Shown here: positions 134 through 21,060 of the stretch, in pieces
Layout: every line of letters starts with the position of its first letter
Position numbering within the stretch: position 1 is the first letter of the stretch
Notes under the pieces: model-generated
What the model was told of the DNA's origin: nothing
Seen by the model: the letters and a program-made list of their open reading frames with translations, nothing else
The model's database searches: none
Virus record (IMG/VR): IMGVR_UViG_3300048549_001834
Coordinates: 1 to 50,691 of that record
DNA length: 50,691 bases
Strand: one strand, 5' to 3'
Origin: a virus
Made by a program: the position numbers and the translations under genes

Positions 134-148
134 ATTATTTATTATTTA

Positions 149-409: not shown

Positions 410-411
410 AT

Positions 412-816: not shown

Positions 817-823
817 AGGTATA

Positions 824-852
824 AATATATCATATTATTTGAGAAAAGTCAA
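824..852 (-). promoter_or_regulatory. sigma70-type promoter, leaderless, for speD
   Basis: Minus-strand TTGACT (847-852), 17-base spacer, TATATT (824-829), then 7 bases to the ATG of speD. The -35 overlaps the last codons of the upstream DUF2452-like gene, so speD is separately transcribed. Confidence 0.75.
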
Positions 853-1696: not shown

Positions 1697-2453
1697 TTAT
1701 AAAAAAATTTTTATCATCGTATCTTTTTATTTTATCTAAATCTTTTGTTTTTTCAATTTTAGAATCTCTCTCGCATAACCATTTATAATCTTCTGTGTTA
1801 TTCGACCACGCTTCTCCGTTCCAAAATTGAAACCCTTGGTAGTCAGACTTATATATACAAGCTTTTTCATACCCTACTCCTGTATACATATAATCTTTAT
1901 TATTTGCAATACAATAGTCTATTTCTGCAAGGTTTGCATATTTGCCTAAATATAATTTTGGATTTTCATAATTCCACGCAAACTGCGTTGAGAAAACACT
2001 ATTCTCTCCGACATCTCTCAAAAATGTAAAAGCAATAGGTTCGTCATTTAAATAATAAATTAAAAAATGTTTTCTCTCAATCTCTAAACTTAGTAGAGGC
2101 TCTAGCTTCCAAGGCTTAAAGTTTCTGTATTCAAAATATTTATTAAATATATCTTTTAAAATTTCTATATTTGCTTTATTCGCTTTCGTATATTTGACCA
2201 CAATATCTTTGCATTTTTTTCTAGCCTTTCGACTACTGCGAGTATCAATAAATTTGCTTAAATCAATTCTTGTTTGTCGAGCTTGATACCAATGGGATTT
2301 TACTGCATTTTTAGGAGCAAAATAGTCATCAGGTAACCATCCTTCCTGCAAAGCTCGCTCTTCTTCGTCTAACGGAACTTCTGCCATGCAATCAAAAAAT
2401 AAATAATCGTATTCAGTGATTGCTCCTGAGTAATGCCTAAAATATATTCTCAT
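1689..2453 (-). CDS. GNAT-fold protein resembling arginyl-tRNA--protein transferase
   Basis: The 254-residue protein resembles the C-terminal half of Ate/Bpt aminoacyl-tRNA--protein transferases, a GNAT-like fold. Residues about 128-150 (FLIYYLNDEPIAFTFL) look like the central strands. The stretch YLGKYANLAEIDYC (about 168-181) followed by YMYTGVGYEKACIYKSDYQG (about 188-207) matches the family pattern of a glycine-rich cofactor segment and a Tyr/Lys-rich ending. The N-terminal Cys cluster of true Ate enzymes is absent, so the substrate is unknown. It overlaps the second SpeD-like gene by four bases (ATGA). That coupling could mean it works on a polyamine-related or amino-acid substrate, but this is inference. 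Confidence 0.45.
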   Translation of the reverse strand: MRIYFRHYSGAITEYDYLFFDCMAEVPLDEEERALQEGWLPDDYFAPKNAVKSHWYQARQTRIDLSKFIDTRSSRKARKKCKDIVVKYTKANKANIEILKDIFNKYFEYRNFKPWKLEPLLSLEIERKHFLIYYLNDEPIAFTFLRDVGENSVFSTQFAWNYENPKLYLGKYANLAEIDYCIANNKDYMYTGVGYEKACIYKSDYQGFQFWNGEAWSNNTEDYKWLCERDSKIEKTKDLDKIKRYDDKNFFIND

Positions 2454-2860
2454 GCCTTGCTTTCATCAAACATTGACCATCCTTTAGTATTTCGTACTCT
2501 TCTATCTAGGAATTTTAACCCAAGAGATATTGGATGAAATTTTTTAATTTCATACTCAATTAAATGAGGGTCAAAATCTTTACAACTATAGACATCAAGT
2601 TGTAATAAATTCGGAGTTTTTTTCTCCCAAGAATGCAAAGATAAATGACTTGTTGTTATTAAACAGAACCCACTAACGCCCTCGTTATTTTTTTCATCAC
2701 ATCTCACCGAGACAGGTTCATGCAAAACTTCCATGTCAATTAATTTAACAATTTTTAAAAGCCATTTATTTGTGAAATCTGTATTCGTAAATGGGGTCTG
2801 CTCGAAAGTAGCATTAACTAAAAGATGTTTATGTTCCACAAAATATATTACACTTACCAA
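2450..2860 (-). CDS. divergent SpeD-like protein lacking the cleavage-site Glu
   Basis: This 136-residue protein aligns by eye with SpeD. GVSGFCLITTSHLSLHSW at residues 61-78 corresponds to the GVSG...ESHxSxHTW core, and LQLDVYSCKDF (87-97) to the VDxFTC segment. The residue before the processing Ser71 is Thr70, where SpeD has Glu. The Ser that becomes the pyruvoyl group is kept. Family members with TSH at this point may have a different substrate or may not self-process. It overlaps its downstream neighbour (GNAT-like) by 4 bases and its upstream neighbour by 7. The activity is uncertain; the fold assignment is fairly secure. Confidence 0.65.
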   Translation of the reverse strand: MVSVIYFVEHKHLLVNATFEQTPFTNTDFTNKWLLKIVKLIDMEVLHEPVSVRCDEKNNEGVSGFCLITTSHLSLHSWEKKTPNLLQLDVYSCKDFDPHLIEYEIKKFHPISLGLKFLDRRVRNTKGWSMFDESKA

Positions 2861-3111
2861 AAGTTTAAAGTGATGTTTTCTCTGTTACATTTATGGTCTT
2901 TTATTTGCGTTAAAACAGTTCGTAGAATATTTATTTCATTCAAAGTTTTTTTAGATTTTCTAGCCTCATATTTCTTTTCAAGCTCTATAATTTTGTCTTG
3001 TATTATTTGCCTGTCAAACTTTCCTTTATATGACCAGCCTAAATCAAATCCTCTATGCAAACCTTTCTGATGAGCTTTTTCGAATTCATTATTTAAGCCG
3101 CTGTCATACAT
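2854..3111 (-). CDS. hypothetical small helical protein
   Basis: An 85-residue, highly charged protein. The N-terminal third has HQKGLHRGFDLGWSYKGKFD, and the middle (about 38-65) is a long Lys/Glu/Arg-rich helix that could form a coiled coil. No family recognised. Its 3' end overlaps the start of the SpeD-like gene by 7 bases and its start is 3 bases after the stop of the nuclease-like gene, so it is part of the same operon. Confidence 0.55.
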   Translation of the reverse strand: MYDSGLNNEFEKAHQKGLHRGFDLGWSYKGKFDRQIIQDKIIELEKKYEARKSKKTLNEINILRTVLTQIKDHKCNRENITLNFW

Positions 3112-3114
3112 GAT

Positions 3115-3567
3115 TCATTTTAAAACCCAAGTTTTTACATCCTTCACAAAATCTTCTGTTTTAATTATAGATATAATGTCTTTTCTATTTTTACGCTGAT
3201 AAAGTCTATACAAAGCTTCTTTCGGACTTGAAACAAAAGATCGATTTGTAATTTTAGATTTGCACCAATCTAGTAAATCTTGGCGACTTACTATCAAAAA
3301 ATGTTTTGAATGCTCAAAAGCTATGTAATCAGCTTTTCCACGCAACCAACCTTTATTGCCTCGCACATTTTGCAACTCTATCCAAATTTCATCGTGATTA
3401 AAAAAGGCATCAGACCTAGAGGTTTTCTTGAATCCTTTTACATCAATTAAAGAATCTCTAACTTTAAAATCCCAATGTTCGTGCATGTCCTGATTTTTTG
3501 AGGCTTTTTCGACACTCCAATTTCTGGACACACACATGTCGTAGAACCTTTTTTCACTACTATTCAT
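3115..3567 (-). CDS. nuclease-like protein (possible PD-(D/E)XK fold), paralogue of the gene at 24897
   Basis: The 150-residue protein carries HWDFKVRDSLIDVKGFKK (about residues 31-48), which reads as a restriction-fold core: an Asp on one strand and an ID-V-K (D-x-K) hairpin. It is followed by EIWIELQNVRGNKGWLRG (about 60-77) and ADYIAFE, then FLIVSRQDLLDW. The same string of features (W-I-E-x, KGW-x-G-x-A, IAFE, L-V-x-R-x-x-L) recurs in the protein encoded at 24897-25379, so the two are paralogues. A phage DNA-processing or nuclease role is inferred from the motif only. It sits one base from the next upstream gene. Confidence 0.5.
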   Translation of the reverse strand: MNSSEKRFYDMCVSRNWSVEKASKNQDMHEHWDFKVRDSLIDVKGFKKTSRSDAFFNHDEIWIELQNVRGNKGWLRGKADYIAFEHSKHFLIVSRQDLLDWCKSKITNRSFVSSPKEALYRLYQRKNRKDIISIIKTEDFVKDVKTWVLK

Positions 3568-3762
3568 TTACCAATTTTTTATTATATTTGCGACTATGAA
3601 AAAACAAGTTATTAAATTAACTATTACAATTAAACTTCTTAATAAAAGACTTATTTGAGCGTCTCTTAATGATAATATAGGTATATCAGGTTCATCATTG
3701 TCTGTTCTTCCCACTCTATGATCGAGAGTTCTAGCCCATATAAGCCAAAATTTTCTAAGCAT
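3568..3762 (-). CDS. small single-pass membrane protein
   Basis: A 64-residue protein with a basic N-terminal half containing RKFWLIWARTLDHRVGR, then one clear membrane segment at about residues 38-60 (LLLRSLIVIVNLITCFFIVA). No signal-peptide cleavage site is evident, so it would stay in the inner membrane, probably N-in. It overlaps the gene before it by 8 bases and abuts the next. The function is unknown. Confidence 0.5.
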   Translation of the reverse strand: MLRKFWLIWARTLDHRVGRTDNDEPDIPILSLRDAQISLLLRSLIVIVNLITCFFIVANIIKNW

Positions 3763-4156
3763 GATTAAGTTCTTTATTTGGCTTAAAAGAGTTCATAGTC
3801 AAGAACCAAAAAATTGTAGCACAAACTTCTTCATCTGACAAACTTGACGAATTTACTATATTTGATCCCAAGACTTCTTGCCAAGGAGCTTCATTGAAAT
3901 TATGAAAAAGCTTGCTTTTGGTATCACGAAGCTCTGCACAAGGAAAATCTTCGCTTTGGAAATCTTTACAGAATCCAACATGGATTTCGTGCTTTGATCT
4001 TTGGGGTTGAGCTTGTAATAAGAAATCCCATGCACTTCTAGCTTCTACATCGATTTCTCTAATACTTTTAGGTTCTTCGTATTTAAGTTGGCTGGAATAT
4101 AGTTTATTAAATATCTTTTTGTAAGATTGCTTATTTATAAGTTGGCTGAAATTCAT
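3755..4156 (-). CDS. hypothetical protein, possibly DUF6557-like
   Basis: I chose the start at the internal Met (MNFSQLINKQSYKKIFNKLY), giving 133 residues. The frame also stays open for 14 more codons to an upstream ATG at 4198, but that would overlap the preceding gene by 68 bases. The opening pattern (x-F-x-x-L-I-x-x-x-S-Y-x-x-I-F) and the ending LSDEEVCATIFWFLTMNSF recall the small DUF6557-type proteins that open with a TFKELL-like helix and close with LSxEEIxAHxLWExT. That match is from memory and weak. No function is known. It is mid-operon and overlaps both neighbours. Confidence 0.5.
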   Translation of the reverse strand: MNFSQLINKQSYKKIFNKLYSSQLKYEEPKSIREIDVEARSAWDFLLQAQPQRSKHEIHVGFCKDFQSEDFPCAELRDTKSKLFHNFNEAPWQEVLGSNIVNSSSLSDEEVCATIFWFLTMNSFKPNKELNHA

Positions 4157-4385
4157 TTTGCGGATTATTTGGATACATGATTCTTTTTTGAAAATCAATT
4201 AAAACATTTTGTCTTTCTATTGCTTCATGCTGTATTTTAATGGTATCTTTTAAATATGTTATTTCGTGATTCTGTTTAAAAATATAAAAAACTACACAAC
4301 ACCCGATTATAGTTAATAGCAAATTTATTATTCTCTCTTGCACAAATAAGATTACACTTTTATTTGTCCCATTTCTCAAGATCAA
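4131..4385 (-). CDS. small membrane protein with coiled coil
   Basis: An 84-residue protein with one membrane segment at about residues 18-38 (IINLLLTIIGCCVVFYIF), preceded by a short polar N-terminus and followed by a Gln/Glu/Lys-rich amphipathic helix (about 43-70). It ends in a Pro/Asn-rich tail. The topology (single TM plus periplasmic or cytoplasmic helix) is also that of inner-membrane spanin subunits, but there is no lysis gene beside it and I do not call it one. It overlaps its upstream neighbour by 26 bases. Confidence 0.45.
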   Translation of the reverse strand: MILRNGTNKSVILFVQERIINLLLTIIGCCVVFYIFKQNHEITYLKDTIKIQHEAIERQNVLIDFQKRIMYPNNPQNEFQPTYK

Positions 4386-4581
4386 CTCCCCTTTCTTCGC
4401 AAAGAGCTACGGCATAACCTACTCTAAAAGAATGTTTGTCTAAAAAACACAAAAGCCCCATAATTATATATGGCTGAACTTTATAAAATCCAAATTCAAA
4501 AAATACTAAAAAACTAATTAAAACATATGGCATAAACTTATTTAAAGAATATTCAAGAATAGATAGGAATTTATTGTTCAT
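4360..4581 (-). CDS. small two-helix membrane protein, first gene of an operon
   Basis: A 73-residue protein with a hydrophobic stretch at about residues 17-47 long enough for two short membrane helices, then a charged tail (CEERGVDLEKWDK). No family recognised. It is the promoter-proximal gene of the run that extends down to 849: a near-consensus promoter ends 7 bases before its ATG, so it should be translated from a leaderless mRNA. Confidence 0.6.
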   Translation of the reverse strand: MNNKFLSILEYSLNKFMPYVLISFLVFFEFGFYKVQPYIIMGLLCFLDKHSFRVGYAVALCEERGVDLEKWDK

Positions 4582-4588
4582 GTTATAA

Positions 4589-4617
4589 ATTATAAGTGTT
4601 TATTTGCGAAATGTCAA
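4589..4617 (-). promoter_or_regulatory. sigma70-type promoter, leaderless, for the 849-4581 operon
   Basis: Minus-strand TTGACA (4612-4617), 17-base spacer, TATAAT (4589-4594), 7 bases, ATG. Both hexamers are perfect consensus. This is the best candidate to drive the ten overlapping genes down to 849. Confidence 0.85.
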
Positions 4618-4624
4618 GAAAAAA

Positions 4625-5263
4625 TTAGTCAAAATATAAAGTAGTTTTATTATTGTATATACTATAAGTGTCTAACAAAAAATCTAAAGATTTCATTTTG
4701 TCACACAAATCATTAGCATAAGAATTATCAAAGACTTTAGAATTATTATTTAAGTTAATTTGATTAACATTTGCGTCATCTTTGTTCATGATTGTGTTGT
4801 CGATCCCTACGGAATATTCTTTAGATTTTACCATATAGTTATTTTTGAAGTTCGCGCGATCTACCAAAAACTCTTCGCAGTAAATATTGCGATAATCTGA
4901 GCTTAATTGATAAAACTTTATTAAATGATTTAAATAATCCCAACCTACTCCATAATAAAAAAAATTAACTTTTGAATTATGAATATTTATATTTAAGAAG
5001 TTGAACAGCTGCTCGACTAAGTTGTAGAAGTATTTATTTTTAGTCTTTTTACCAAAAGCAAATCTTCCATAATTAATTAATCCTGAGTTATCAACTGATG
5101 GACAAAAGGTATACGCAGAGATATGCTCATTTATGAAAATATCTTTTTCATCTATATTTGAAATACATTTACTAATAAATAAATTTTCTTCAATAGATAG
5201 GTTTGAATTTAAATTAAAAAAATACTTGCTATATAGATCAAGTTTATATTTAATTTGATTCAT
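4625..5263 (-). CDS. hypothetical protein, Asn-rich
   Basis: A 212-residue protein of unknown family. I chose the ATG at 5261-5263, which overlaps the kinase stop by one base (TAATG), over an in-frame ATG at 5278 that would overlap by 16. The sequence is rich in Asn, Tyr and Phe, with VNFFYYGVGWDYLNHLI near residue 100 and a low-complexity stretch (NVNQINLNNNSKV) near 170. No signal peptide or membrane helix is seen. It is co-transcribed with the dNMP kinase. Confidence 0.55.
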   Translation of the reverse strand: MNQIKYKLDLYSKYFFNLNSNLSIEENLFISKCISNIDEKDIFINEHISAYTFCPSVDNSGLINYGRFAFGKKTKNKYFYNLVEQLFNFLNINIHNSKVNFFYYGVGWDYLNHLIKFYQLSSDYRNIYCEEFLVDRANFKNNYMVKSKEYSVGIDNTIMNKDDANVNQINLNNNSKVFDNSYANDLCDKMKSLDFLLDTYSIYNNKTTLYFD

Positions 5264-5838
5264 TATGCTAAAACGCATTGAATATCAGACAAAAAAGAGC
5301 GAGCAAAACCTACGCACTCTGCCATGCTGTCATCGCCAAACGTAGGCCAAGAAACAACAAAATCTCTATAATTCATAAGCTTTAATGACTCTCTCTTTTC
5401 TTCTTCATTAGCAGGAGCAACAGACTGTCTAATAATCTCCACGATAACTCCATCATTTTCTTTAATCCATGCAGCCTCATTTTCATATCTAACATCTGTA
5501 ATAACAGGTATTTCGCTGTTAGCAGAACAATATTCAACTGAATCTTTTATTTTATTGATCCAGCAATTTTGATCTAACTTTCTTCTTATATGAGTCCCAT
5601 AAGTCACTAAAAAAGGGCGGATTAATTCTTTAGATTCATTTTCTTGAGTCCAAGCAGATATTCCTATGTTATCAAGCAAAAAAGGGTCGCATTCTTTTTT
5701 TAATTCATCAGCAAAAGCGAATCTTCGAAAATCTGGTAGGCCCATCTCTCTTGAAAGCATGTTAATGGCGGTAAAAAAAGTATCTTTACCACTTCTAGCG
5801 AATCCTGTTAATCCAATAATTTTGGGTAATTTATTCAT
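5263..5838 (-). CDS. deoxynucleoside monophosphate kinase
   Basis: This is a 191-residue P-loop kinase like phage T4 gp1, which phosphorylates dNMPs to supply phage DNA synthesis. The Walker A motif GFARSGKDT lies at residues 12-20 and is followed by FRRFAFADELKKE (about 37-49), the nucleotide-kinase helix. VTYGTHIRRKLDQNCWI (about 78-94) and the strand VITDVRYENEA (about 112-122) are both typical of this family. The length is normal. A consensus promoter sits 6 bases before the ATG. The next gene starts on its stop codon. The exact nucleotide preference cannot be read from the sequence. Confidence 0.85.
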   Translation of the reverse strand: MNKLPKIIGLTGFARSGKDTFFTAINMLSREMGLPDFRRFAFADELKKECDPFLLDNIGISAWTQENESKELIRPFLVTYGTHIRRKLDQNCWINKIKDSVEYCSANSEIPVITDVRYENEAAWIKENDGVIVEIIRQSVAPANEEEKRESLKLMNYRDFVVSWPTFGDDSMAECVGFARSFLSDIQCVLA

Positions 5839-5844
5839 CTAATG

Positions 5845-5873
5845 ATTATAGATGAATTTAAATTATTTGTCAA
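5845..5873 (-). promoter_or_regulatory. sigma70-type promoter, leaderless, for the dNMP kinase
   Basis: Minus-strand TTGACA (5868-5873), 17-base spacer, TATAAT (5845-5850), then CATTAG and the ATG. Both boxes are perfect. The -35 overlaps the stop codon of the DUF1501 gene by a few bases, so the kinase operon is separate from it. Confidence 0.85.
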
Positions 5874-7162
5874 GATAAAATATCAAACAAAGGCTCGCCT
5901 TTATGGGCTATAGTAAAAGGTCTTCCTGACGGGGAATATTGATAATTATTTAAAGATAAACCAAGGGTATGAGCTATAGTAGCATTCAAATCTTCTGGCT
6001 TGATAGGTTTTCCTTCAACAGGAGATCTGCCTGTTTTGTCTGTCTCACCATAAGTAAATCCACCTTTCACTCCACCTCCTGCGAGAAAAGCTGTGAAGCA
6101 ATAAGGCCAATGGTCTCTCCCGTCTCTTCCATTTATGTTTGGCGTTCTGCCAAATTCAGAGGTTAATACAACCAAAGTCTCTGATAAAAGCCCTCTTCTG
6201 TCTAAATCAATAAGAAGTCCGCTTAAAGCTTGATCGATATCAGCACAATTTGCAGCAACTCTTTCAAAGTTATTATCATGAGTATCCCAACCTCCTCGCG
6301 TAACTTCTACATACCTAACACCATGCTCAACTAGCCTTTTAGCTAACAAGCAACCTTTACCGAAGTTAGTGTTTCCATAAAGATCACTTGCAGATGCTGG
6401 CTCTTTAGTGATATCAAAAGCATTTAGATCATTACTATTCATTAATTTTATTGCGTCTTTATATAAGTCACTGTAAGCTCTTACTTGTTTTAATGGAAAT
6501 TCTGTAGAAAAATTTTGATTCAATTGCTCGGCAATAGATATTCTGCTTTGAAAATGCTCATGATCTAAATACGAAGCCATTTTACTATTAGCTAGACCTG
6601 AGGAAGGGTTGTTAATAGGAAGAGCGCCGTATTTAGACTCTAGAAAGCCAGCTCCGCCTCCTCCACCTCCAATCTTAACATTGCTAGGTATTGTTTTATT
6701 CATTGAACCTGAAAGCTTTGACACCCAACTCCCGAATGTAGGATGCACAATTGTGCCCCTCTTAAGATAACTAGTGTGCATTAAATAACTTGCTTGCATG
6801 TGGGCTCCTTGACTAGTATTCATTGTTTTGATAATTGACCCAAGATGCATTAGTTTCGCTGTTTTTGGTAGATTTTCGGATAAAATAACTCCATCAGCGC
6901 TTGTTGCAATTGATTTAGTAGGCCCTTGAATATCAGGAGCGTCAGGCTTTGGGGCAAATGTGTCAAGATGCGACATCGCTCCTGACATATTTAAATAAAT
7001 GACATGCCTAGCTGTCGGAACTCTAGTACTAGGCTCAAGAGCGCTCACTGTATTGTTAATATAAGCTCCTGCCATCGGCATAAGCCCTACTCCGAAGCAT
7101 GCTTTTGCGGCATGCGCTATAAATTCTCTTCTCCCTAATTCATCAATTGTATTTAAGTTCAT
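5870..7162 (-). CDS. DUF1501 family protein with Tat-type signal
   Basis: A DUF1501 protein (sulfatase/alkaline-phosphatase-like fold, function unknown), about 430 residues, full length. Near the N-terminus GRREFI followed by a hydrophobic stretch is a twin-arginine export signal, so it should be exported folded. Family hallmarks are VIYLNMSGAMSHLDTFAPKP early on, GWDTHDNNF in the middle, and the C-terminal VVLTSEFGRTPNINGRDGRDHWP, GGGVKGGFTYG and PEDLNATIAHTLG blocks. These proteins are abundant in Planctomycetota and Verrucomicrobiota, usually next to DUF1549/DUF1553 genes, as here. The ATG at 7160-7162 is preferred because the Tat signal follows quickly and a TAATAAT box precedes it; an in-frame ATG at 7178-7180 is possible. 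Finding it among phage genes is unusual. Confidence 0.9.
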   Translation of the reverse strand: MNLNTIDELGRREFIAHAAKACFGVGLMPMAGAYINNTVSALEPSTRVPTARHVIYLNMSGAMSHLDTFAPKPDAPDIQGPTKSIATSADGVILSENLPKTAKLMHLGSIIKTMNTSQGAHMQASYLMHTSYLKRGTIVHPTFGSWVSKLSGSMNKTIPSNVKIGGGGGGAGFLESKYGALPINNPSSGLANSKMASYLDHEHFQSRISIAEQLNQNFSTEFPLKQVRAYSDLYKDAIKLMNSNDLNAFDITKEPASASDLYGNTNFGKGCLLAKRLVEHGVRYVEVTRGGWDTHDNNFERVAANCADIDQALSGLLIDLDRRGLLSETLVVLTSEFGRTPNINGRDGRDHWPYCFTAFLAGGGVKGGFTYGETDKTGRSPVEGKPIKPEDLNATIAHTLGLSLNNYQYSPSGRPFTIAHKGEPLFDILS

Positions 7163-7215
7163 AATATTATTATTACACATTTTAAAGAAAAATCAACACA
7201 AGTGTAATACAATAT

Positions 7216-7602
7216 ATGAGGTTTTCGCTTCTTTTTATATTAATATATATTTGTCTAGAAGCAAGGGTGGAAAGAAAAGATTTTCTAGATAATTGCGATT
7301 GGTGCAAAAATCAAGCTAAATCTACTCAACCGTTAGATCTTGGCGAATGGATGGCAAGATGCGGTAAAAAACCGAAAGGCTTGTGGTTCACAATGAAAAC
7401 TTTGGGGAGAGTTTATGGAACTTACAAAAAATCTATTTCTAGAAGTTGGTTGTATTCTGAAAAATTAGGATGGATATATAATGCTCCAAGCTATAAAGGG
7501 TATTTTTATACAGAGAAATGGGGTTGGATTTATATAAAAGATGATATGATTTATTTTTTTAAATATAATAGATGGGATTACCTAACAAACATAAATTCAT
7601 GA
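7216..7602 (+). CDS. small secreted Trp/Tyr-repeat protein
   Basis: A 128-residue protein divergent from the DUF1501 gene. Residues 1-16 form a signal peptide (MRFSLLFILIYICLEA), then a Cys pair (CDWC) and a mature part with tandem aromatic motifs. These are SWLYSEKLGWIYNAP, YFYTEKWGWIYI and YFFKYNRWDYL (about 75-122), a repeat with W-I/L-Y cores. Similar GWLY-type repeats end many secreted proteins of Verrucomicrobiota and Planctomycetota, where their role is unknown; surface or glycan binding is a guess. Its 3' end overlaps the 3' end of the convergent DUF1549 gene by 25 bases. Confidence 0.65.
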   Translation: MRFSLLFILIYICLEARVERKDFLDNCDWCKNQAKSTQPLDLGEWMARCGKKPKGLWFTMKTLGRVYGTYKKSISRSWLYSEKLGWIYNAPSYKGYFYTEKWGWIYIKDDMIYFFKYNRWDYLTNINS

Positions 7603-9848
7603 CTATTAATTAATACCCATATTATTTCTTTATATGCATCTTTCGTATTTTTTAAATTATCAGTAAATATCCTTAATTCTTTAGAAGTAGGCTCTCGGTT
7701 TAATATATATTTATAACCTACTGTTATTTTATCACTTAACGACTTTTGAGATTCAATTGCTTTAATAACTTCAAAGTTTTTATTTTTCAATAACCTTGTT
7801 TCAACGAACCCATTTAATAAATTTAATACTTGTGTCGCTGAAGCGCTTTTGTTTGCGTTTTCGATCTGCTCTCTATCTGAGCCGCCAAACTCTCTGATTA
7901 AATGACCAATCGGAGCGGGAGAAGATAGTTCGGAAGCTCTAACTGAATTTCTATCTTTGACAAAATTCTGCTTGTACTCTTGCTCTCTAGCTTTCTTTTG
8001 AGATTTGTATTTATCAACACAAGATTCACAGCAAAATGCCAAAGTTTCACCGTTCTCATTGAGAGCTAATAATGTTGGGTCGATTGCTCTTCCAGGCTTG
8101 ATAGGGCAATCAGTATTTATCGGCTCACCAAATTTTGATTTACTTGCAGCTTTAGGCTTTTCGGTTTTATTGATTTTAGCCATTATATCTTCAAATAATT
8201 CTTCTCCACTCATGGCTGAAAGAGTTTGAAATTGATCGTAACCTTTTGTATTTTGCTCTAATTTTCTAGAATCTATATTATCAAATGTTAAATTTACTAA
8301 AGAATCCCAAATTTGCTCCCCACTCATTCTTTCTAATATCGGCCCTTGATAAAAATAAGGGACAGCTCCTTTAGACTGAGCTTTGGTATTTGGCCCTGCG
8401 ATAATCCACTCAACTTCTACAGGCATAGATTGATCTTTATTATCCTTAGGTATTACATCTCTGGTTACAGACTCTTTTTGGAATGTTTTAGTGTTATACA
8501 ATATTCTTAAAAACTCTCTTAAATCATAATTTAAGGCAACCATGACTTTTTCGAGATGTAATTGCAATTTTGGGTCGGTAGCAAGAGTGTCATCGAACAT
8601 ATTATCAATTGGCTCTATTAAAGCTAATCCAAAAACTTCCTTCCACAAGCGATTTACAATAACAGCTGTAAATCTTGGATTTGATTCAGACGCCAACCAA
8701 TTAGCATAAATTTCCCTAGAACCTGCATTTGGAGCAACAGTTTTAATATCTACCTCTTTACCGAAAATCGTTTTCCCTAGTAAAGCTTCATTAGGTTTTG
8801 CATTATCATACTGATAATCTTTAGGCAAACTGATCTTTCCGTTACCTAAACTCGTTAATCCAGTTTGCAAAATATCTTGGATATCTCTTATGCTATTTTG
8901 TAGCTGTCTAGATTTTTGAGGTTGATCGGACTGCTCTAATTTTCTTCTTTCATCTCTCGCTAATCTATTTAAGACGCTTAAATTTTCTGGACTTTTTGTT
9001 CTCAAATTAGTCGAGCCACTTGTGAATGCAGCCATTTCGTAAAATTGTTTTTGAGTCCAACGATCAAAAGGATGGTCATGGCATTGGGCGCACTCGAGGC
9101 TTGTGCCTAAAAAAATACGTACTGTGTTAGCCATGCTATCAAGAGGCATATTGACATCACGAGCAAAATAACTTACTCCTTCGTTGCCTTTAATCCATAG
9201 AGAGCCTGATGAGGATAACATTTCTCTAACCCATTCATCGTATGGTCTGTTATTTGATATAAACTCTTTTACATAATTCTTATAAGGCACTCCAGATATT
9301 CTATTGGTTAACCTATCTTTAATTCTTAATATATCCGCCCAAAAATTAAACCAGTGACTTACATATCCTTCACTACCTAATAACTGATCAACTAATTTTG
9401 ATCTTTTATTTTTATCTTTATCATCAAAAAAAGAGTTTACTTCTGCTAAAGAAGGCGTCCTCCCGATAATTTTAAGATATGCTCTACGTAAATATATAGC
9501 ATCATCGACCTCCTTATTTGGCCTAAGATTATACCCTCTGAGTTTTGCTTCAATTAAGCTATCAATATAATAAGCATGAGTTTTTAAATCTCTATCAGAT
9601 AATGGTCTTTTAAATTTAGGCAAAGCTTCATGACTCGGTGGAAAATTATTTTTAATATAAGCTTGGTTGTCTTTTGTTAAAGAATCAATTGAAATCCTGA
9701 ATAATTGCAGATCACTTGATCTTTTAATTAACGCATGTGTAGCATTCGCCTCTACAATATCGCCTTTCAAATTTTTTCCGTTATTAAAATATAGCGTATC
9801 CCCAAAACAGAGAATTGAAGATAAAAACAATAAGATTAAAATTTTCAT
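7578..9848 (-). CDS. DUF1549/DUF1553 secreted protein with SHD1-like and TRASH-like domains
   Basis: A 756-residue secreted protein. The ATG at 9846-9848 gives a clean signal peptide (MKILILLFLSSILCFG); the frame also has a TTG three codons upstream. After it comes a small SHD1-like beta domain (about 20-65: NGKNLKGDIVEANATHALIKR...SIDSLTKDNQAYI). Then comes DUF1549 (about 90-280) with CAQCHDHPFDRW at 253-264, a cytochrome-like CxxCH. DUF1553 follows in the C-terminal half (SNPRFTAVIVNRLWKEVFG near 390; YKYILNREPTSKEL near 710). A TRASH/YHS-like metal site is inserted near 590-640 (CPIKPG...FCCESC). These proteins are typical of planctomycete and verrucomicrobial genomes and pair with DUF1501; the biochemical role is unknown. 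Length is close to the family norm. Confidence 0.9.
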   Translation of the reverse strand: MKILILLFLSSILCFGDTLYFNNGKNLKGDIVEANATHALIKRSSDLQLFRISIDSLTKDNQAYIKNNFPPSHEALPKFKRPLSDRDLKTHAYYIDSLIEAKLRGYNLRPNKEVDDAIYLRRAYLKIIGRTPSLAEVNSFFDDKDKNKRSKLVDQLLGSEGYVSHWFNFWADILRIKDRLTNRISGVPYKNYVKEFISNNRPYDEWVREMLSSSGSLWIKGNEGVSYFARDVNMPLDSMANTVRIFLGTSLECAQCHDHPFDRWTQKQFYEMAAFTSGSTNLRTKSPENLSVLNRLARDERRKLEQSDQPQKSRQLQNSIRDIQDILQTGLTSLGNGKISLPKDYQYDNAKPNEALLGKTIFGKEVDIKTVAPNAGSREIYANWLASESNPRFTAVIVNRLWKEVFGLALIEPIDNMFDDTLATDPKLQLHLEKVMVALNYDLREFLRILYNTKTFQKESVTRDVIPKDNKDQSMPVEVEWIIAGPNTKAQSKGAVPYFYQGPILERMSGEQIWDSLVNLTFDNIDSRKLEQNTKGYDQFQTLSAMSGEELFEDIMAKINKTEKPKAASKSKFGEPINTDCPIKPGRAIDPTLLALNENGETLAFCCESCVDKYKSQKKAREQEYKQNFVKDRNSVRASELSSPAPIGHLIREFGGSDREQIENANKSASATQVLNLLNGFVETRLLKNKNFEVIKAIESQKSLSDKITVGYKYILNREPTSKELRIFTDNLKNTKDAYKEIIWVLINSHEFMFVR

Positions 9849-9886
9849 AACAATCAATAGACAATTATGATTAAATTACACCGTTT

Positions 9887-10051
9887 TTATTTCCACTTGC
9901 AATAATTCGGGTCTTCTTCTCTTTTGCGACGCATGTAATCTCGCTTCTGTTGCCTACGTTTTTCCTTGTCTGCTTCATCATATTTTTTTCTAGCTCTAGA
10001 TAATGATTCTTTCCCTTTATCTGTTTGTTGGTATTTTTTATTTCTATCCAT
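9887..10051 (-). CDS. small basic protein
   Basis: A 54-residue, highly charged protein (MDRNKKYQQTDKGKESLSRA at the start, ending DPNYCKWK), with repeated K-Y...R...K-K-Y spacing and many Arg/Lys. It is like the small basic helix proteins of many phages, perhaps binding nucleic acid. Its ATG overlaps the stop of the upstream acidic protein by 8 bases, the overlap pattern seen for true genes here. The acidic/basic pairing could mean the two proteins bind each other. No family name is known. Confidence 0.6.
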   Translation of the reverse strand: MDRNKKYQQTDKGKESLSRARKKYDEADKEKRRQQKRDYMRRKREEDPNYCKWK

Positions 10052-10283
10052 CTAGATTAAAATCGTCAAGGTTTTCATCATCTTCTTCTTCATCTGGCTC
10101 ATCTAAATTAAAAACTATATCGTCTCCAAGTAACTCTTTAATTTTTTCCATCAAAGCTCCAGCTATTGTAAAAACATTAATGTCAAACTCTTCTAAATAT
10201 CTATCACACATATCATCAAGATCAAAACGAAATGCATCGGTTTGCTCATCAAAATCTCTTGGGCCAGTATATTTGTCAGACAT
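10044..10283 (-). CDS. small acidic protein
   Basis: A 79-residue, strongly acidic protein. It starts MSDKYTGPRDFDEQTDAFRF, has a helical middle (FTIAGALMEKIKELLG, about 38-53) and ends in a run of Asp/Glu (PDEEEDDENLDDFNLDG). No family recognised. It overlaps fcl by 8 bases upstream and the basic protein by 8 downstream, so it is a tail gene of the glycan operon transcript. It may be a partner of the basic protein; this is inference. Confidence 0.55.
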   Translation of the reverse strand: MSDKYTGPRDFDEQTDAFRFDLDDMCDRYLEEFDINVFTIAGALMEKIKELLGDDIVFNLDEPDEEEDDENLDDFNLDG

Positions 10284-11223
10284 TTTTAAGATACCAGTTG
10301 TATGTTTGGCGAATACCTTCTGTTAAGGCTATTGATGGAGTAAAGCCAAATTTGAACATACGATTGCTGTTCATTAATTTTCTAAAAGTTCCATCTGGCT
10401 TCGTTTTGTCATATCTGATTTCCCCACGAAACCCTACTATAGATTTAATTATATTAGCTAATTCAAGTATAGAAAATTCTTGATAAGATCCACAATTTAA
10501 ATGAGAAATATTATATTTATAAATATCTTCGGCGTTAATTTTCTGAAGGCATAACAAAATTGCACTCGCTAAGTCTCTGACATGAAGAAACTCTCTTCTT
10601 GGTTTGCCTGAGCCCCAAATCTTAACAAATCCCAATTCATCTTGCTTCGCTGCGTGAAACTTATTGATTAACGCAGGTAAAACATGAGAGCTGTATAGGT
10701 CGAAATTATCATTCTCGCCATAAAGGTTGCATGGCATTATGGAGTAAAAATTGTCTCCATATTGGTGATAGTAGGCTTCGCACATTTTGAGAGCTGCAAT
10801 TTTTGCAACGGCATAAGGCTCGTTCGTTTTCTCTAGAGGTCCAGTCAGTAACTGCTCTTCTGTTATAGGCAGTTTTGGGCTTTTGGGGTAAATGCAAGAA
10901 GATCCTAAATTAATTAATTTTTTAACTGAGGAATTGTGAGCTGATTTAATTATATTTGTGGCAATTTGTAAATTATCATATATATAATCCGCTCTATAAA
11001 CATTATTAGATTCAATTCCTCCAACTTTTGCGGCGCATAAAATCACTGCGTCAATTGAATTATTTTTAAAAAAGGAGTGAACTTTACTTTGATCTCTTAA
11101 ATCCAGTTCTCTTCTGGATCGGGTAATGATATTTTCATAACCAGATTTTTTGAGCAAATCAAGGACTGCGGAACCTACCATGCCTTTATGCCCTGCAATA
11201 AAAATTTTAGATTTTTTGTCCAT
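10276..11223 (-). CDS. fcl: GDP-L-fucose synthase
   Basis: This 315-residue extended SDR converts GDP-4-keto-6-deoxymannose to GDP-L-fucose (epimerase/reductase). The NADP-binding GHKGMVGS motif is at residues 11-18, AAKVGGI at 64-70, SSCIYP at 108-113 and the catalytic YAVAK at 137-141. GSGKPRREFLHVRDLA, the family's substrate-binding stretch, lies further on at about 203-218. All diagnostic residues look intact. Its start overlaps the end of gmd by 17 bases, so the two enzymes of the pathway are coupled. Together with gmd and the GT11 gene it makes a complete fucosylation cassette. Confidence 0.93.
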   Translation of the reverse strand: MDKKSKIFIAGHKGMVGSAVLDLLKKSGYENIITRSRRELDLRDQSKVHSFFKNNSIDAVILCAAKVGGIESNNVYRADYIYDNLQIATNIIKSAHNSSVKKLINLGSSCIYPKSPKLPITEEQLLTGPLEKTNEPYAVAKIAALKMCEAYYHQYGDNFYSIMPCNLYGENDNFDLYSSHVLPALINKFHAAKQDELGFVKIWGSGKPRREFLHVRDLASAILLCLQKINAEDIYKYNISHLNCGSYQEFSILELANIIKSIVGFRGEIRYDKTKPDGTFRKLMNSNRMFKFGFTPSIALTEGIRQTYNWYLKNV

Positions 11224-12268
11224 TTAAAATTGAGTAATCGTTATTATACATTTTAAGCACTAAATCTTTAAATGAAGTCTTTCGCTTCCAACCTAACTCA
11301 GATTCTGCTTTAGATGGGTCTCCGCAAAGTTTGTGGACTTCTGCTGGTCGATAAAACTTCGGGTCAACTTCAAAAAATAACTGTCCAGATTCGGTATAAT
11401 ATTTTTCTGAGTCACTTTCTCCTTCAGAATAAAATTTAATATCAGCATGACTTAGGCATGTATTTAAGAAATGTCTCACCGTAAACATTTCTCCGCTCCC
11501 TAAAACATAATTCTCTGGCTTATCTTGATTTAACATTAACCAAACTCCTTCCATAAAATCTTCTGCATCGCTCCAGTCTCTCTGAGCTTCTAAGTTGCCA
11601 AGTTTAAGAATCGGTAGAGGTTTATTATTTTCGAGGGCAATTTTTATCTTGGCAATTGTATGGGTGATTTTACGAGTAACAAAATCCAACCCTCTTCTCG
11701 AACCTTCATGGTTAAACAACCAGCCTTGCACTGCATATAAGCCATATGACTCTCTATAAACTCTAACGATATGCCTTGCGGCACACTTGGCTGCACCATA
11801 TGGAGACTGAGGTAGTAGCGGATGATTTTCATCTTGTGGCGTATATACGACATCGCCAAACTCCTCAGAAGAACCTGCGTTATAAAATCGGCAATGAGGA
11901 GCAAATCTACGAATAGATTCAAGTATATGCAACACCGAGCTTGCGTCTGTATCCCATGTTTGAATAGGGTATTCCCAACTACCTGCAACGAAAGATTGAG
12001 CTGCAAAGTTAATAAAATAATCTGGCTGAATGTCAATGACTACATCTCGAATACTATGGGCGTCGTTTAAATCCATATTAATTAGTTGAAATCTAGGCTC
12101 ATCTTCTAAATGCAAAATATTTTCATGATTTTTAACACTAAGCCTGCGCGCAGTGCCGTAAAGCATGAAATCAGTTTTACCAAATTCTTGTTTAAACAAT
12201 TTTAAAAGATAGTCTACCATATGACTACCATCTTGTCCTGTGACTCCTGTTACAACGATTTTTTTCAT
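11207..12268 (-). CDS. gmd: GDP-mannose 4,6-dehydratase
   Basis: This 353-residue enzyme catalyses the first step to GDP-fucose. The cofactor motif TGVTGQDG is at 7-14 and FAAQSFVAGSWEYP at 88-101. The active-site GSSEEFG is at 132-138, YGAAK at 157-161 and LFNHEGSRRG at about 184-193 (usually LFNHESPRRG). The late LGNLEAQRDWSDAEDF block is characteristic of Gmd, and the length is standard. Substrate GDP-mannose must come from the host, as no gene for it is seen here. A TATAAT box lies 5 bases before the ATG. It is followed by fcl with a 17-base overlap. Confidence 0.94.
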   Translation of the reverse strand: MKKIVVTGVTGQDGSHMVDYLLKLFKQEFGKTDFMLYGTARRLSVKNHENILHLEDEPRFQLINMDLNDAHSIRDVVIDIQPDYFINFAAQSFVAGSWEYPIQTWDTDASSVLHILESIRRFAPHCRFYNAGSSEEFGDVVYTPQDENHPLLPQSPYGAAKCAARHIVRVYRESYGLYAVQGWLFNHEGSRRGLDFVTRKITHTIAKIKIALENNKPLPILKLGNLEAQRDWSDAEDFMEGVWLMLNQDKPENYVLGSGEMFTVRHFLNTCLSHADIKFYSEGESDSEKYYTESGQLFFEVDPKFYRPAEVHKLCGDPSKAESELGWKRKTSFKDLVLKMYNNDYSILNGQKI

Positions 12269-12273
12269 ATAAT

Positions 12274-12279
12274 ATTATA
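12274..12279 (-). promoter_or_regulatory. possible -10 box before gmd
   Basis: Minus-strand TATAAT ends 5 bases before the gmd ATG (TATAATATTAT then ATG). No convincing -35 lies 16-18 bases upstream. It resembles the boxes before the genes starting at 22450, 44130 and 47750 and may be a promoter of a different class from the TTGACA sites. Confidence 0.4.
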
Positions 12280-12296
12280 TCTTGATGTTTAAAAAA

Positions 12297-13097
12297 TTAA
12301 ATAACAATCCATTCTTCAGGCCTAACTGTTTGATAATCGACATTATTCCCATACCAAACTTTTGGTGAGACGACTTTTTTTTGTGGATTTTGATTGAGCC
12401 ACGCCCCCATCCAACTGAAAGAACTATTAGCTATTATGTTATTGTGGCACATAGTCATTAGTTTTAAATCATCTATATTCGAATTGTTTTCCATAAAAAT
12501 CATATTTTCAAATTCAAGGTTTTGCTTGCACCACGCGATATCATCAGAAAATACAAATAAATTACCTTTAGGTTTTATTATCTCTAAAGCTTTTTGATAA
12601 TATGTAATATCTAAAACAGGATGATAGCCATTCGATTTTAAATAGTCTCCTCTCCTGACATGTAAAGAACAGGAGTCTGTAAAGTCAAGATTATGATTTA
12701 AATCTAAATCTAAGCAAGATATAATTTCGCTTCTATAATCTTTTATGTATTTTTCGTTCTGCCAATAACCATCAAAATAATAAAAAAATTTTTTATCATA
12801 TTCAATTTGTATAAAAGACCCATTGGACGGTTCTTGTATAAATTTTTGAGCCCCGTCTCGATACGCTTTAGAATGAAATTGATCTATTGCATCTTGAGTT
12901 AGTATTGGAATTTTTATATTTAATAAGTCAGGCAAACAAAACTCTCTAGCATCTGTATATCCCACGCGATTAGCTCCGCTAGTATAAAAACTAATATCAT
13001 AATAATCTTTAACACCAAATCTTTTAGATAATGAGCGGCCAAAAGCCCATTGAAATAATTGATTACAAAGGCCACCTTGCATTTTTATAATAATCAT
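12297..13097 (-). CDS. GT11 fucosyltransferase (alpha-1,2-type)
   Basis: A 266-residue glycosyltransferase family 11 protein, which moves fucose from GDP-fucose to galactose or another sugar. It starts with MIIIKMQGGLCNQLFQWAFG (GGLGNQLFQ-type motif, here with Cys). It has the GDP-fucose-binding HVRRGDY at 146-152, then FVFSDDIAWCK at about 181-191 and the closing CHNNIIANSSFSWMGAWLN at 217-235. All GT11 motifs are present. It stands 28 bases upstream of gmd, in the same direction, so donor synthesis and transfer are encoded together. The acceptor is unknown. Confidence 0.9.
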   Translation of the reverse strand: MIIIKMQGGLCNQLFQWAFGRSLSKRFGVKDYYDISFYTSGANRVGYTDAREFCLPDLLNIKIPILTQDAIDQFHSKAYRDGAQKFIQEPSNGSFIQIEYDKKFFYYFDGYWQNEKYIKDYRSEIISCLDLDLNHNLDFTDSCSLHVRRGDYLKSNGYHPVLDITYYQKALEIIKPKGNLFVFSDDIAWCKQNLEFENMIFMENNSNIDDLKLMTMCHNNIIANSSFSWMGAWLNQNPQKKVVSPKVWYGNNVDYQTVRPEEWIVI

Positions 13098-13099
13098 TT

Positions 13100-14212
13100 T
13101 TAAAAGATTTTTTTTGAAGCATCTTGTAATATTTTAATAATTTTTTCTATTTGAGAATCTAGAGAGTATTCTTTTTTATATCTTTCGTAGGCTAACTTTG
13201 ATTTTTCGCAATAATATTTTTTTTCATTTTTTAATTTCAACATTTCTAAAGAATAACCTTCTATATCGGACCTAGAAAAACATTTCCCAGAATCACCTAT
13301 GACTTCAACATGTCCATTTGCGAAAGACGTGTGACTTATGCAAGGTTTTTTGTGATACATGGCTTCTGTAAAAACAGCGCCAAAGGTTTCTCCATCGTTT
13401 CTGCCGTGACTAAAAACATCTATCGTTTCTAAAAACGAATGTATCGCATCAGAATCACCTGTATGCGGTAATGATATGAAATTTTTTAAACACAATTCTT
13501 TAGCTTGATTATTATAATCGTCATGCCCGCCTAATAAGATGAAGCAAGTATCATCAGTTTCGATTTGCTTATACGCATTAAGAGGTACTTCTGAGAACAA
13601 GCCACTTGAATTACGTTGGTGAAATCCGTAGACGAACTTATCACTGACGCCTAATTCCTCACGCATATTCGTGAATGGTGGTTCTGGCATTTCTTGGATA
13701 ACTGGCACAATCTCTAATCTACTAGCGTCACCACCCTGTTTAATCCATTGTTGACCGCACCAGTTGGTTATGTGGAATGATTTAAATATATTCCTTTGAT
13801 TATCTACACCAGCATTTAGCGCTAAGATATTGATTAATGGTGTTTTAGTTATCATGTGAAATGGGAACTCTGGGTGGCCAGCTCTACCCCCAAGAACAAC
13901 ATCGTAATTATCTTCACTAAATAAGTCCCATAAGTTAGTGTTAACCCATGGATGTAACCTATCTCTAACATCCTTGAATTCAACTTCCACCTTAATTAAG
14001 TTAACATTCTTACTCTCCATATATTTCTTTCTATCTGGGTCCGTATCTGGATGTTGCCAGTCAGAACCCAAATATGGTGCAGCATCTGTATAGTAGTAAT
14101 CAACCTCAAATATATCTTGTGGTAAATTACCAGCTATTGCATGTAAAAATCTTTCTGTACCACCAGCAGAAAGTCCACCAAATTTTATAAATGCAACTCT
14201 TATCTTATTCAT
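13100..14212 (-). CDS. glycosyltransferase, GT4-like
   Basis: A 370-residue GT-B fold enzyme. The N-terminal glycine-rich loop GGLSAGGTERFLHAIAGNLP (about 12-31) is that of GT4 enzymes (GGxxxGGxExxL). The C-terminal domain has VYGFHQRNSSGLFSEVPLNA (about 194-213), then IDVFSHGRNDGETFGAVFTEAMYHKKP near 265-292, with the E-x(7)-E nucleotide-sugar motif (ETFGAVFTE). Donor and acceptor are unknown. It is 2 bases from the GT11 gene and overlaps the next upstream gene by 8 bases. The N-terminal half appears less A/T-run-rich than its neighbours, which may reflect separate origin. Confidence 0.85.
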   Translation of the reverse strand: MNKIRVAFIKFGGLSAGGTERFLHAIAGNLPQDIFEVDYYYTDAAPYLGSDWQHPDTDPDRKKYMESKNVNLIKVEVEFKDVRDRLHPWVNTNLWDLFSEDNYDVVLGGRAGHPEFPFHMITKTPLINILALNAGVDNQRNIFKSFHITNWCGQQWIKQGGDASRLEIVPVIQEMPEPPFTNMREELGVSDKFVYGFHQRNSSGLFSEVPLNAYKQIETDDTCFILLGGHDDYNNQAKELCLKNFISLPHTGDSDAIHSFLETIDVFSHGRNDGETFGAVFTEAMYHKKPCISHTSFANGHVEVIGDSGKCFSRSDIEGYSLEMLKLKNEKKYYCEKSKLAYERYKKEYSLDSQIEKIIKILQDASKKIF

Positions 14213-16270: not shown

Positions 16271-16296
16271 GTTGTATGTATTTTTGGATTGGCTTT

Positions 16297-17103: not shown

Positions 17104-17109
17104 ATTCTT

Positions 17110-21059: not shown

Positions 21060-21060
21060 G

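Follow-up and report, generated by a model that had tools for sequence, protein, structure and literature searches.

A DUF1501 and DUF1549-DUF1553 gene pair of cellular ancestry encoded among phage genes, with probable hosts in marine Opitutales

What could a phage gain from two large, apparently exported proteins of families that are multiplied in planctomycetes and Verrucomicrobia? The question is raised by a DUF1501 gene and a DUF1549-DUF1553 gene in the window, that is, the whole stretch of 50,691 nucleotides analysed (IMG/VR record IMGVR_UViG_3300048549_001834). In Rhodopirellula baltica, DUF1549 and DUF1553 each number 41 copies, according to the available text of PMC2754498. Despite the heavy multiplication in both groups, the accessible text of the literature searched gives no function for DUF1501 or DUF1549/1553. 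No study of DUF1501, DUF1549 or DUF1553 as viral genes was found there; a weak match to DUF1501, in a 61-aa ORF, appears in one phage paper. The original prediction that no role in a virus has been described is in line with this. The features of the locus are as follows.

5263..5838, minus strand: deoxynucleoside monophosphate kinase (PHROG phrog_139 and Pfam), in this lineage the next gene downstream of DUF1501; context, outside the pair.
5870..7180, minus strand: DUF1501, 436 aa, likely start 7162 (MNLNTIDELGRREF), with a Tat-type twin-arginine motif and a predicted alkaline-phosphatase-superfamily fold (Pfam, model, fold matches, conserved residues).
7216..7602, plus strand: Trp/Tyr-rich ORF, 128 aa, leader-like start, with an overlap at the 3' end of DUF1549.
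7578..9848, minus strand: DUF1549-DUF1553 (PSCyt2-PSD1), 756 aa, with a Sec-like leader, a heme CxxCH and one TRASH-like segment (Pfam, invariant residues, model).

The pair was expected to be phage-borne, and phage genes indeed lie on both sides of 5.8-9.9 kb: the kinase, lambda-like tail genes at 29743-37591 and a DnaE polymerase at 47774-50350. The same stretch recurs elsewhere. Positions 1-19857 of the window match a segment of a viral contig of 193,844 bp at 100% identity, and positions 1240-12280 are 99% identical to a contig bearing another metagenome number. An assembly chimera with host chromosome, the event that would have undone the original prediction, is thereby rejected for the window, since the same junctions are found in two contigs of different metagenomes and the window genes searched are absent from cellular loci (0 of 14); likewise, none of 10 flank queries was found in 15 host loci. 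That host chromosome was joined to phage contigs more generally, or that host contigs were misclassified, is extremely improbable. The IMG/VR records are metagenomic, and host DNA may account for some of the 550 matching stretches. However, phage polymerase, RNR, primase, helicase and ClpA-like genes surround the pair in many contigs, and tail gene J is present in 8 of 50 records. The artefact is refuted for the window and the V1-V4 loci shown, and may apply to part of V5 and V6. All of the viral records are metagenomic, and completeness is given for none.

The DUF1501 protein is a full-length family member, scoring 362 bits against PF07394 (cut-off 27) over profile positions 1-389 of 390. The open frames of both genes were confirmed, and the export signals of both proteins were assessed by eye and alignment. 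The twin arginines are conserved, R17 in 126/126 rows and R18 in 125/126 with a single viral lysine, and the intact DUF1501 with a Tat-type signal was thus correctly anticipated. Viral DUF1501 retains most conserved polar residues. R17, D73, H127, D299, H301, R345, D356 and H357 are kept in 66/66 viral rows; among the residues fixed in hosts yet variable in viruses, E285 is kept in 50/66 and E260 in 61/66.

On the structure model (pLDDT 88.8), DUF1501 is assigned to the alkaline-phosphatase-superfamily fold, which is common to NPP/ENPP phosphodiesterases, PafA and S1 sulfatases. Foldseek gave a best E of 1.8e-7, but the TM-scores were low (about 0.4). The VIA comparison with ENPP6 gave a Z of 20.6 (244 aligned, rmsd 3.0), and Z was about 20 to NPPs and PafA and about 19 to sulfatases. 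The host ortholog has a marginal Pfam match to phosphodiesterase PF01663 (24.2 bits, cut-off 23). The best hit of a DUF1501 profile in the PDB sequence search was a sulfatase at E 0.017, and NCBIfam has no name for the window protein. In contrast to the superfamily, DUF1501 lacks CxPSR, carries an invariant His at the putative nucleophile position and has different predicted metal-site residues. Helix 127-136 of the model begins with the invariant H127; its register against a host sulfatase was set by eye on a shared Thr(-Gly) motif, and the profile comparison aligned the C-terminal part only. In this register an invariant His would occupy the nucleophile position. Since it would be His and not Ser/Thr/Cys, ordinary phosphatase or sulfatase chemistry is doubtful for DUF1501. 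A canonical S1 sulfatase was ruled out by motif: the corresponding segment is GAHMQASYLMHT, without the C/S-x-P-x-R formylglycine motif, while the neighbouring host sulfatase has CTPSR, and the window protein gave no PF00884 match at E 0.001. Weak sub-cut-off PF00884 matches to DUF1501 in 6/50 viral records fit a distant relationship; a sulfatase over cut-off occurs in 1/50. No reported activity for any DUF1501 was found in the literature searched, and therefore its substrate class is read from the fold.

Both PSCyt2/DUF1549 (PF07583, 156 bits, cut-off 29.8) and PSD1/DUF1553 (PF07587, 87 bits, cut-off 28.5) were matched in one protein at 7578-9857(-), together with DUF4214 and a heme CxxCH, which identifies it as PSCyt2-PSD1. 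Its start had been placed at 9848, and relatives support this ATG over the TTG at 9857. The predicted Sec signal, CxxCH and TRASH-like site were also recovered, as a Sec-like leader and one copy of each motif. The CxxCH (residues 256-260 of the 759-aa frame) is invariant in 41/41 aligned sequences. TRASH-like Cys segments, counted with our own regular expression, number one in V1 and none in V2; among host proteins there are two in 11/12 full-length copies of L060-L073 and one in 8/11 of L150-L163. A weak SHD1-like N-terminal domain and DUF4214-like C-terminal helices are also present. The structure model (pLDDT 80.5) had no PDB match at E ≤ 0.001, with weak SHD1-like, Hfq-like and phycobilisome-linker-like pieces only; the PDB sequence search gave nothing significant, and NCBIfam gave a sub-cut-off match.

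A secreted Trp/Tyr-repeat protein had been noted between the two genes. The ORF exists, but it lies on the opposite strand and is found in some V1 phages only. It has no Pfam, PHROG or NCBIfam match, and beyond the window and its near-copies, four V1 loci have a recognisable copy at 58-66% (L004, L005, L007, L013). It is an accessory of some V1 phages, outside the core.

The family-wide scan of IMG/VR found 550 DUF1501-encoding stretches, from which the best 80, ranked by similarity to the window, were retained. Absence of the domains from related phages would have spoken against the original prediction; instead many related phages carry them, with DUF1549 also present in 21 of 36 viral records that have DUF1501. 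The DUF1549 domain is absent from 9/9 V3 records and from some V1 and V2 records, and DUF1501 alone is the constant part of the viral module. Each phage record searched has one DUF1501 copy, except for two in one record (G021). Among the 50 viral records, which we selected from those found for the scans of PSCyt1, tail gene J, sulfatase, PhoH and PstS, none has PSCyt1, whereas the positive control of host genomes gave 3/3. In tblastn, both proteins had no match at 1e-5 among 50,697 named phage records; the listed polymerase matches to named phages are 25-31% identical, and the listed J matches are 30-40% identical over about a fifth of J. Therefore, the window group is far from named phages. 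One uncultured Caudovirales phage protein is already annotated as DUF1501 domain-containing (BFVD A0A6J5M742), at 13% identity in the structural alignment.

The closest cellular DUF1501 relatives, in Opitutales/Opitutia, are 72-79% identical, followed by 52% and then 42% or less. In marine Opitutales both genes head a three-gene chromosomal cluster that ends in a multi-heme PSCyt1 protein: the DUF1549/1553 gene is directly upstream of DUF1501 in 15/15 host loci, and a PSCyt1-type gene is downstream in 14/15. Phages have the same gene order and strand. For DUF1549/1553, the best-segment identity to H1-type host loci L060-L066 is 54-58% in 6/7 and 42% in the seventh, a fragment. The phages differ in that no PSCyt1 was found, in fewer TRASH-like segments and in the extra opposite-strand ORF of a V1 subgroup. 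The host phylum indicated by the pair is Verrucomicrobiota, as proposed, and more specifically marine Opitutales; judging from gene phylogeny, the phages carrying the pair probably infect this group. Of the original prediction, the intact, phage-borne and host-derived state of the genes is also supported, and use of the proteins on host envelope or environmental polysaccharide is a conjecture.

In trees with host homologues, which the original prediction had called for, viral copies are nested among cellular ones. Viral DUF1501 falls at several places inside one Opitutales ortholog group, and in the trees of both proteins V1 groups next to host clade H1, with V2 inside the H2 group. The main tree omitted L075, L141-L143, L146 and L148 (a fragment and second copies of included loci), and the AU tests additionally omitted the planctomycete rows and L022b. 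These tests gave p = 9.4e-8 against a single V1+V2 clade and 1e-4 against a V1+V2+V3 clade, for groups named after the tree had been seen. By this phylogeny, the V1 and V2 versions both come from a single Opitutales ortholog group, and there was more than one acquisition. The DUF1549 tree covered 13 V1 loci plus the window, 5/7 V2 loci and host rows of at least 400 aa; its placement of L058, together with a single truncated host row and on a branch of 1.7, is not trusted. A further tree held 5/10 V2, 6/9 V3, 3/4 V7 and 17/22 V5 rows, with L022b omitted. Phage polymerase trees disagree with the DUF1501 types. Two other host DUF1501 paralogs had 0 viral relatives, against 35 loci for this ortholog, in a control of 2 of 17 other copies in one host genome using single-sequence patterns. 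When one V5 DUF1501 was searched against 387 genomes from the phylum of the host, the top match by E-value was 46% and the highest among the matches listed 48%; therefore, V5 has no close donor there. Viral DUF1501 has a higher G+C than its phage flank and, mostly, a lower one than the host genes.

The viral copies are under purifying selection: group medians of dN/dS are 0.037-0.126, with pS near saturation in most groups and no usable value from the V4 DUF1549 set. Encoded among phage genes, nested among cellular homologues and under purifying selection, the two are candidate auxiliary genes of host origin.

The V1-V4 genes are mostly near replication or nucleotide genes (RNR, primase, polymerase). 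At least one replication, nucleotide or ClpA-like flank gene was present in 15/16 V1, 10/10 V2, 8/9 V3 and 11/15 V4 loci, against 0/22 V5, 0/2 V3b and 1/4 V7 loci. The order NrdA-NrdB-D1549-D1501-PHP-EXO-POL is found in V2 loci L017 and L020, and NrdB is convergent within 3 kb in 9/16 V1 and 6/15 V4 loci. Because phage loci share ancestry and recombine, these counts are not independent.

Host-derived phosphorus genes such as phoA are known in marine cyanophages. Our leading reading of the present genes is tentative, somewhat short of an even chance: the pair would be a host-derived exported hydrolase with a heme/metal partner, made early in infection and used in the host periplasm or on the surface. 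Large dsDNA tailed phages would have taken both genes from the DUF1549/1553-DUF1501-PSCyt1 cluster of marine Opitutales and would express them early or mid infection along with the replication genes. DUF1501, exported by host Tat, would be a metal-dependent enzyme of the alkaline-phosphatase superfamily that hydrolyses phosphate, phosphodiester or sulfate esters in the periplasm or at the cell surface. DUF1549/1553 may be exported by Sec, receive heme in the periplasm and act as the redox or metal partner of DUF1501, perhaps alongside PSCyt1 from the host. Nutrient scavenging or hydrolysis aiding phage DNA synthesis would be the most likely benefit, similar in role to cyanophage phoA. Unlike cyanophage phoA, the present genes belong to another family, and the host is verrucomicrobial. 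None of the 50 viral records has a PstS-like gene, which weakens the phosphate-scavenging reading; PhoH, found in 29/50, is uninformative.

It is rather unlikely, though second in our ranking, that both exported proteins, together with sugar-modifying genes of the phage, modify a host surface glycan or an envelope polymer at an early stage of infection, so that other phages are excluded or the receptor is masked. Gmd-like nucleotide-sugar genes, some weak, occur in the fetched flanks of 12/16 V1, 3/10 V2, 3/15 V4 and 1/2 V3b loci, the window holds a long glycan gene cluster at 10276-22450, and V1 and V2 match different host clades, as expected for a clade-specific target. However, none of the 9 V3, 4 V7 and 22 V5 loci has such genes in its flanks, and hosts keep the same protein in a cluster whose scanned genes are not for glycan synthesis. 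We consider it unlikely, slightly more so than remodelling, that phages repeatedly acquire the first two components of an Opitutales envelope complex made of three, leave the multi-heme PSCyt1 to the host and replace the subunits during DNA synthesis. The phage pair would then have to fit the host's third part, so related phages would swap in the allele of the infected host clade, at much the same place in the replication region. If true, such a replacement of subunits in a redox-hydrolase complex on the host cell surface would be a novel form of takeover.

Less probable still is that the heme protein sustains periplasmic electron transfer or metal supply, for example for an iron-dependent ribonucleotide reductase, with DUF1501 as a structural or maturation partner. 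The invariant CxxCH and the TRASH-like segment agree with it, as do the NrdA-NrdB genes directly upstream in the 5 of 10 V2 loci that were displayed, and a nearby NrdB in V1 and V4; the domains were called suggestive of redox function in 2009 (PMC2754498, available text). However, DUF1501 occurs without the DUF1549 domain, and therefore the heme protein is an optional part; moreover, V2 lacks TRASH segments. A virion component, such as a tail-borne depolymerase, is very improbable. Polymer-cleaving enzymes are commonly borne on phage tails, but both proteins carry leaders, of Tat and Sec type, and in the window and most V1-V4 loci their genes lie beside those for replication or nucleotides, not beside tail genes.

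Compared with the multi-copy PSCyt2-PSD1 and DUF1501 families of planctomycetes and Verrucomicrobia, the phage proteins share the Pfam families, twin arginine and heme motif; DUF1501 numbers 6 to 58 copies per host genome (16 Opitutia genomes searched) against the single phage copy. Separately acquired versions of one ortholog on distinct phage backbones, without the third partner, single out the copy of importance, and a minimal unit for expression and assay is DUF1501 by itself or both genes together. The pair may also serve to mark large phages that infect marine Opitutales. In the available literature text, the one cultured phage found for this host group is the 33-kb P8625 of Verrucomicrobia subdivision 4 (32,894 bp, 51% G+C; PMC4642752); its host is marine and verrucomicrobial too, but, unlike in the window, the text reports a signal peptide in none of its proteins. 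In Proteobacteria, the available text of PMC5122149 describes a DUF1501-DUF1800 gene pair beside chitin synthase, which likewise joins a twin-arginine DUF1501 to an operon partner and differs in that partner being DUF1800 and in involving no phage.

The DUF1501 and DUF1549-DUF1553 genes of the original prediction were confirmed by profile matches, and phage genes lie elsewhere in the 50,691-bp IMG/VR virus record (G+C about 26-40% per kilobase): dNMP kinase, ClpA-like ATPase, DnaE polymerase, tmRNA and lambda-type tail genes, along with a long cluster of sugar-nucleotide and glycosyltransferase genes.

5870-7180, minus strand: DUF1501 gene, full profile length
7578-9857, minus strand: DUF1549-DUF1553 gene, ATG at 9848 favoured as start by relatives
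7216-7602, opposite strand to the pair: 128-aa ORF between both genes, overlapping the 3' end of the DUF1549-DUF1553 gene

A leader-bearing 171-aa protein of locus L049 (9473-9988), encoded just ahead of DUF1549 and in the same orientation, is 25% similar to the 128-aa ORF. An assembly chimera with host chromosome, which would have refuted the original prediction, was ruled out. The stretch is identical or nearly so in two contigs from different metagenomes, and in the longer one, of 193,844 bp, tail gene J (33.6-36.7 kb) shares the contig with the pair (59-63 kb).

Scans of viral contigs with single sequences recovered 35 loci for DUF1501 (60-100% identity) and 23 for DUF1549 (41-100%), so the possible absence of both domains from related phages did not hold. 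The expected co-occurrence was found: among 38 such records PF07394 (DUF1501) was present in 36, PF07583 (DUF1549) in 23 and both in 21, part of the remainder being contig ends. PF07583 was absent from all nine records of viral group V3, which reach 205,857 bp. With family-wide profiles, a DUF1501 relative was encoded in 550 of 569 matching stretches (the best 80 of the 550 were kept) and a DUF1549 relative in 66 viral loci. Neither protein matched the 50,697 named phage records at 1e-5; a DUF1501 annotation already exists for a single phage protein in BFVD. Record G021 carries a second, unrelated DUF1501 (L022, 13064-14239; 37% to that of the window) near its V2 copy in the same contig. A V3 phage record, G025, encodes a PF00884 sulfatase at 68813-69850 (172 bits, above cut-off).

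The nearest cellular relatives of DUF1501 were Opitutales/Opitutia genomes (72-79%), followed by one at 52% and then, at 30-42%, by Planctomycetota and a few others, among the best 80 of 127. In all 15 Opitutia loci (L060-L074) the DUF1549/1553 gene is directly upstream of DUF1501 on the shared strand, and in 14 of them a PSCyt1-type gene, the multi-heme third member of the host cluster, is directly downstream; the one scanned held three PSCyt1 stretches. Beyond it, most loci have a SufS-like gene (named by eye) and an opposite-strand sulfatase. A sample of 273 genomes from the host's order included 31 with a DUF1501 copy at 61-79% and 62 with any match at E ≤ 1e-120; the 16 host genomes searched for copy number have 6 to 58 each. 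In measured examples of V1-V4, the G+C content of the DUF1501 gene is 38.9-44.0%, that of its fetched locus 31.6-38.2% and that of the host genes 43-47%.

Trees with host homologues, as originally proposed, were built for both proteins and placed V1 and V2 beside or within Opitutales clades. In the DUF1501 tree, V1 (17 rows including the window) groups as the sister of host clade H1 (support 94), V2 (10 rows) lies inside the H2 group (support 100), and V3 (9 rows) splits off before both and their host clades, after other host orthologs. The DUF1549/1553 tree is concordant for V1 and V2. Constraining V1 and V2 as one clade cost 126 log-likelihood units (AU p 9.4e-8), and adding V3 to that clade cost 167 (p 1e-4). 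A quick tree of 126 rows added V4 and placed V7 (L198-L200) inside another host subclade; its starred branches require at least seven virus-label changes tree-wide, counting V5 and V6. Synteny of the chromosomal locus favours vertical inheritance for the host copies. Polymerase trees conflict with DUF1501 type, pairing L014 (V1) with L031 (V3) at 100/100 and L024 (V2) with L034 (V1) at 99/96. Ten V1 loci with both genes are 80-91% identical to the window in DUF1501 and 58-64% in polymerase. The tree placements and this mismatch show that hosts donated DUF1501 on at least two occasions and that the gene passes between phage backbones. A control search of the same collection with two further DUF1501 paralogs, both from host G040, found no viral relatives. 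This result, from two of the 17 other G040 copies, suggests that viral capture is specific to one ortholog.

Group medians of dN/dS ranged over 0.037-0.090 in DUF1501 and 0.044-0.126 in DUF1549 (the V4 DUF1549 set gave no usable value), with synonymous sites close to saturation in most groups. A search of 50 viral records for PSCyt1 found none; the positive control gave 3 of 3 host genomes. By regular expression, the DUF1549 protein has one TRASH-like Cys segment in V1 phages and none in V2 and L058. Among the host copies of full length, 11 of 12 in L060-L073 have two and 8 of 11 in L150-L163 have one; the approximately 50% paralogs L074 and L164-L169 have none.

With Foldseek, the AlphaFold2 model of DUF1501 (pLDDT 88.8, 74 aligned sequences) matched sulfatases (best E 1.8e-7, TM about 0.4); on VIA-align it matched ENPP6 (Z 20.6), further NPPs, PafA and sulfatases. 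All 66 viral rows keep D73, H127, D299, H301, R345, D356 and H357; E342 is Glu in 62 and Asp in four, E260 is retained in 61, and E285, fixed in hosts, in only 50. Judged by eye, helix 127-136 appears to correspond, via a common Thr-Gly motif, to the sulfatase helix starting with the catalytic Cys. DUF1501 shares the sulfatase fold but has the invariant H127 where, in this register, that Cys is expected; a canonical sulfatase was therefore rejected. DUF1501 is an alkaline-phosphatase-fold protein with what appears to be an unusual site. The DUF1549-DUF1553 model is mostly helical (pLDDT 80.5) and matched no solved fold. A DUF4214 match, which also ends the DUF1549 protein, was seen below cut-off in a window glycosyltransferase (41651-43561, minus strand).

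V2 loci, L017 and L020 among them, read NrdA-NrdB-DUF1549-DUF1501-PHP-exonuclease-polymerase-ClpA-like on one strand throughout. A convergent NrdB lies within 3 kb in 9/16 V1 and 6/15 V4 loci, then mostly NrdA, PHP, exonuclease and polymerase. DUF1501 follows ClpA-like in L029 and L031 (V3), L014 (V1) and L212 (V4), preceded by polymerase where shown, and adjoins dNMP kinase in the window. Nine neighbour genes were scored (polymerase, PHP, exonuclease, primase, helicase, NrdA, NrdB, dNMP kinase, ClpA-like). At least one was in the fetched flank of 15/16 V1, 10/10 V2, 8/9 V3, 11/15 V4, 1/4 V7, 0/2 V3b and 0/22 V5 loci, where V5 counterparts may escape because the query sequences were taken from V1 phages and the window. 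L305, a V5-like DUF1549 locus, gave polymerase (47%) and ClpA-like (36%) matches. The phage tmRNA (39244-39641, minus strand) has the tag ANNYMATKTVLKLLA, and tmRNA-like sequence (73-87% at the nucleotide level) adjoins DUF1501 in 8 of 9 V3 loci.

Our preferred reading is that the host-derived pair is a hydrolase module, which would be exported from the infected cell's cytoplasm and act in its periplasm or on its surface during phage DNA synthesis, presumably to the phage's benefit. The main rival is envelope remodelling by the pair, favoured by gmd-like genes nearby in 12/16 V1, 3/10 V2 and 3/15 V4 loci. A phosphate role is disfavoured by the unusual residue at the putative nucleophile position of DUF1501 and by PstS in 0 of 50 viral records. 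Published work gives the function as unknown, with carbohydrate or membrane links proposed (PMC5615132, PMC5122149, PMC4452313); PMC2754498 suggests a redox role. Among the ten papers found to name DUF1501 and the four naming DUF1549, DUF1553, PSCyt1 or planctomycete cytochromes, PMC5418858 alone is on phages, judged by title, subscription papers and preprints being largely outside the search; it reports a 61-aa Pseudomonas phage ORF with a weak DUF1501 match. No viral role was found in the literature searched, in agreement with the original prediction. The pair is real and host-derived and, as far as the searches go, undescribed in phages. Phages carrying host genes are already known; what is new, within the same scope, is that a single ortholog from an uncharacterised family with many copies was taken repeatedly, without its third partner.

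The window's sugar cluster (10276-22450, minus strand) includes GDP-fucose-type epimerases, a GT11 fucosyltransferase-like gene, several glycosyltransferases, an FkbM methyltransferase and a methyltransferase-sulfotransferase fusion (15053-16270). A UvdE-like endonuclease (27124-28227, minus strand) and a Cupin_8/JmjC-like protein (28983-29729, plus strand) lie beside the tail genes. An ATE_C (arginyl-tRNA-protein transferase C-terminal) match at 1689-2453 (minus strand; 29.8 bits, cut-off 25) and the two-domain ClpA-like AAA ATPase with Clp_N at 45303-47750 (minus strand) occur in the same phage, where an N-degron or protein-degradation takeover is possible.
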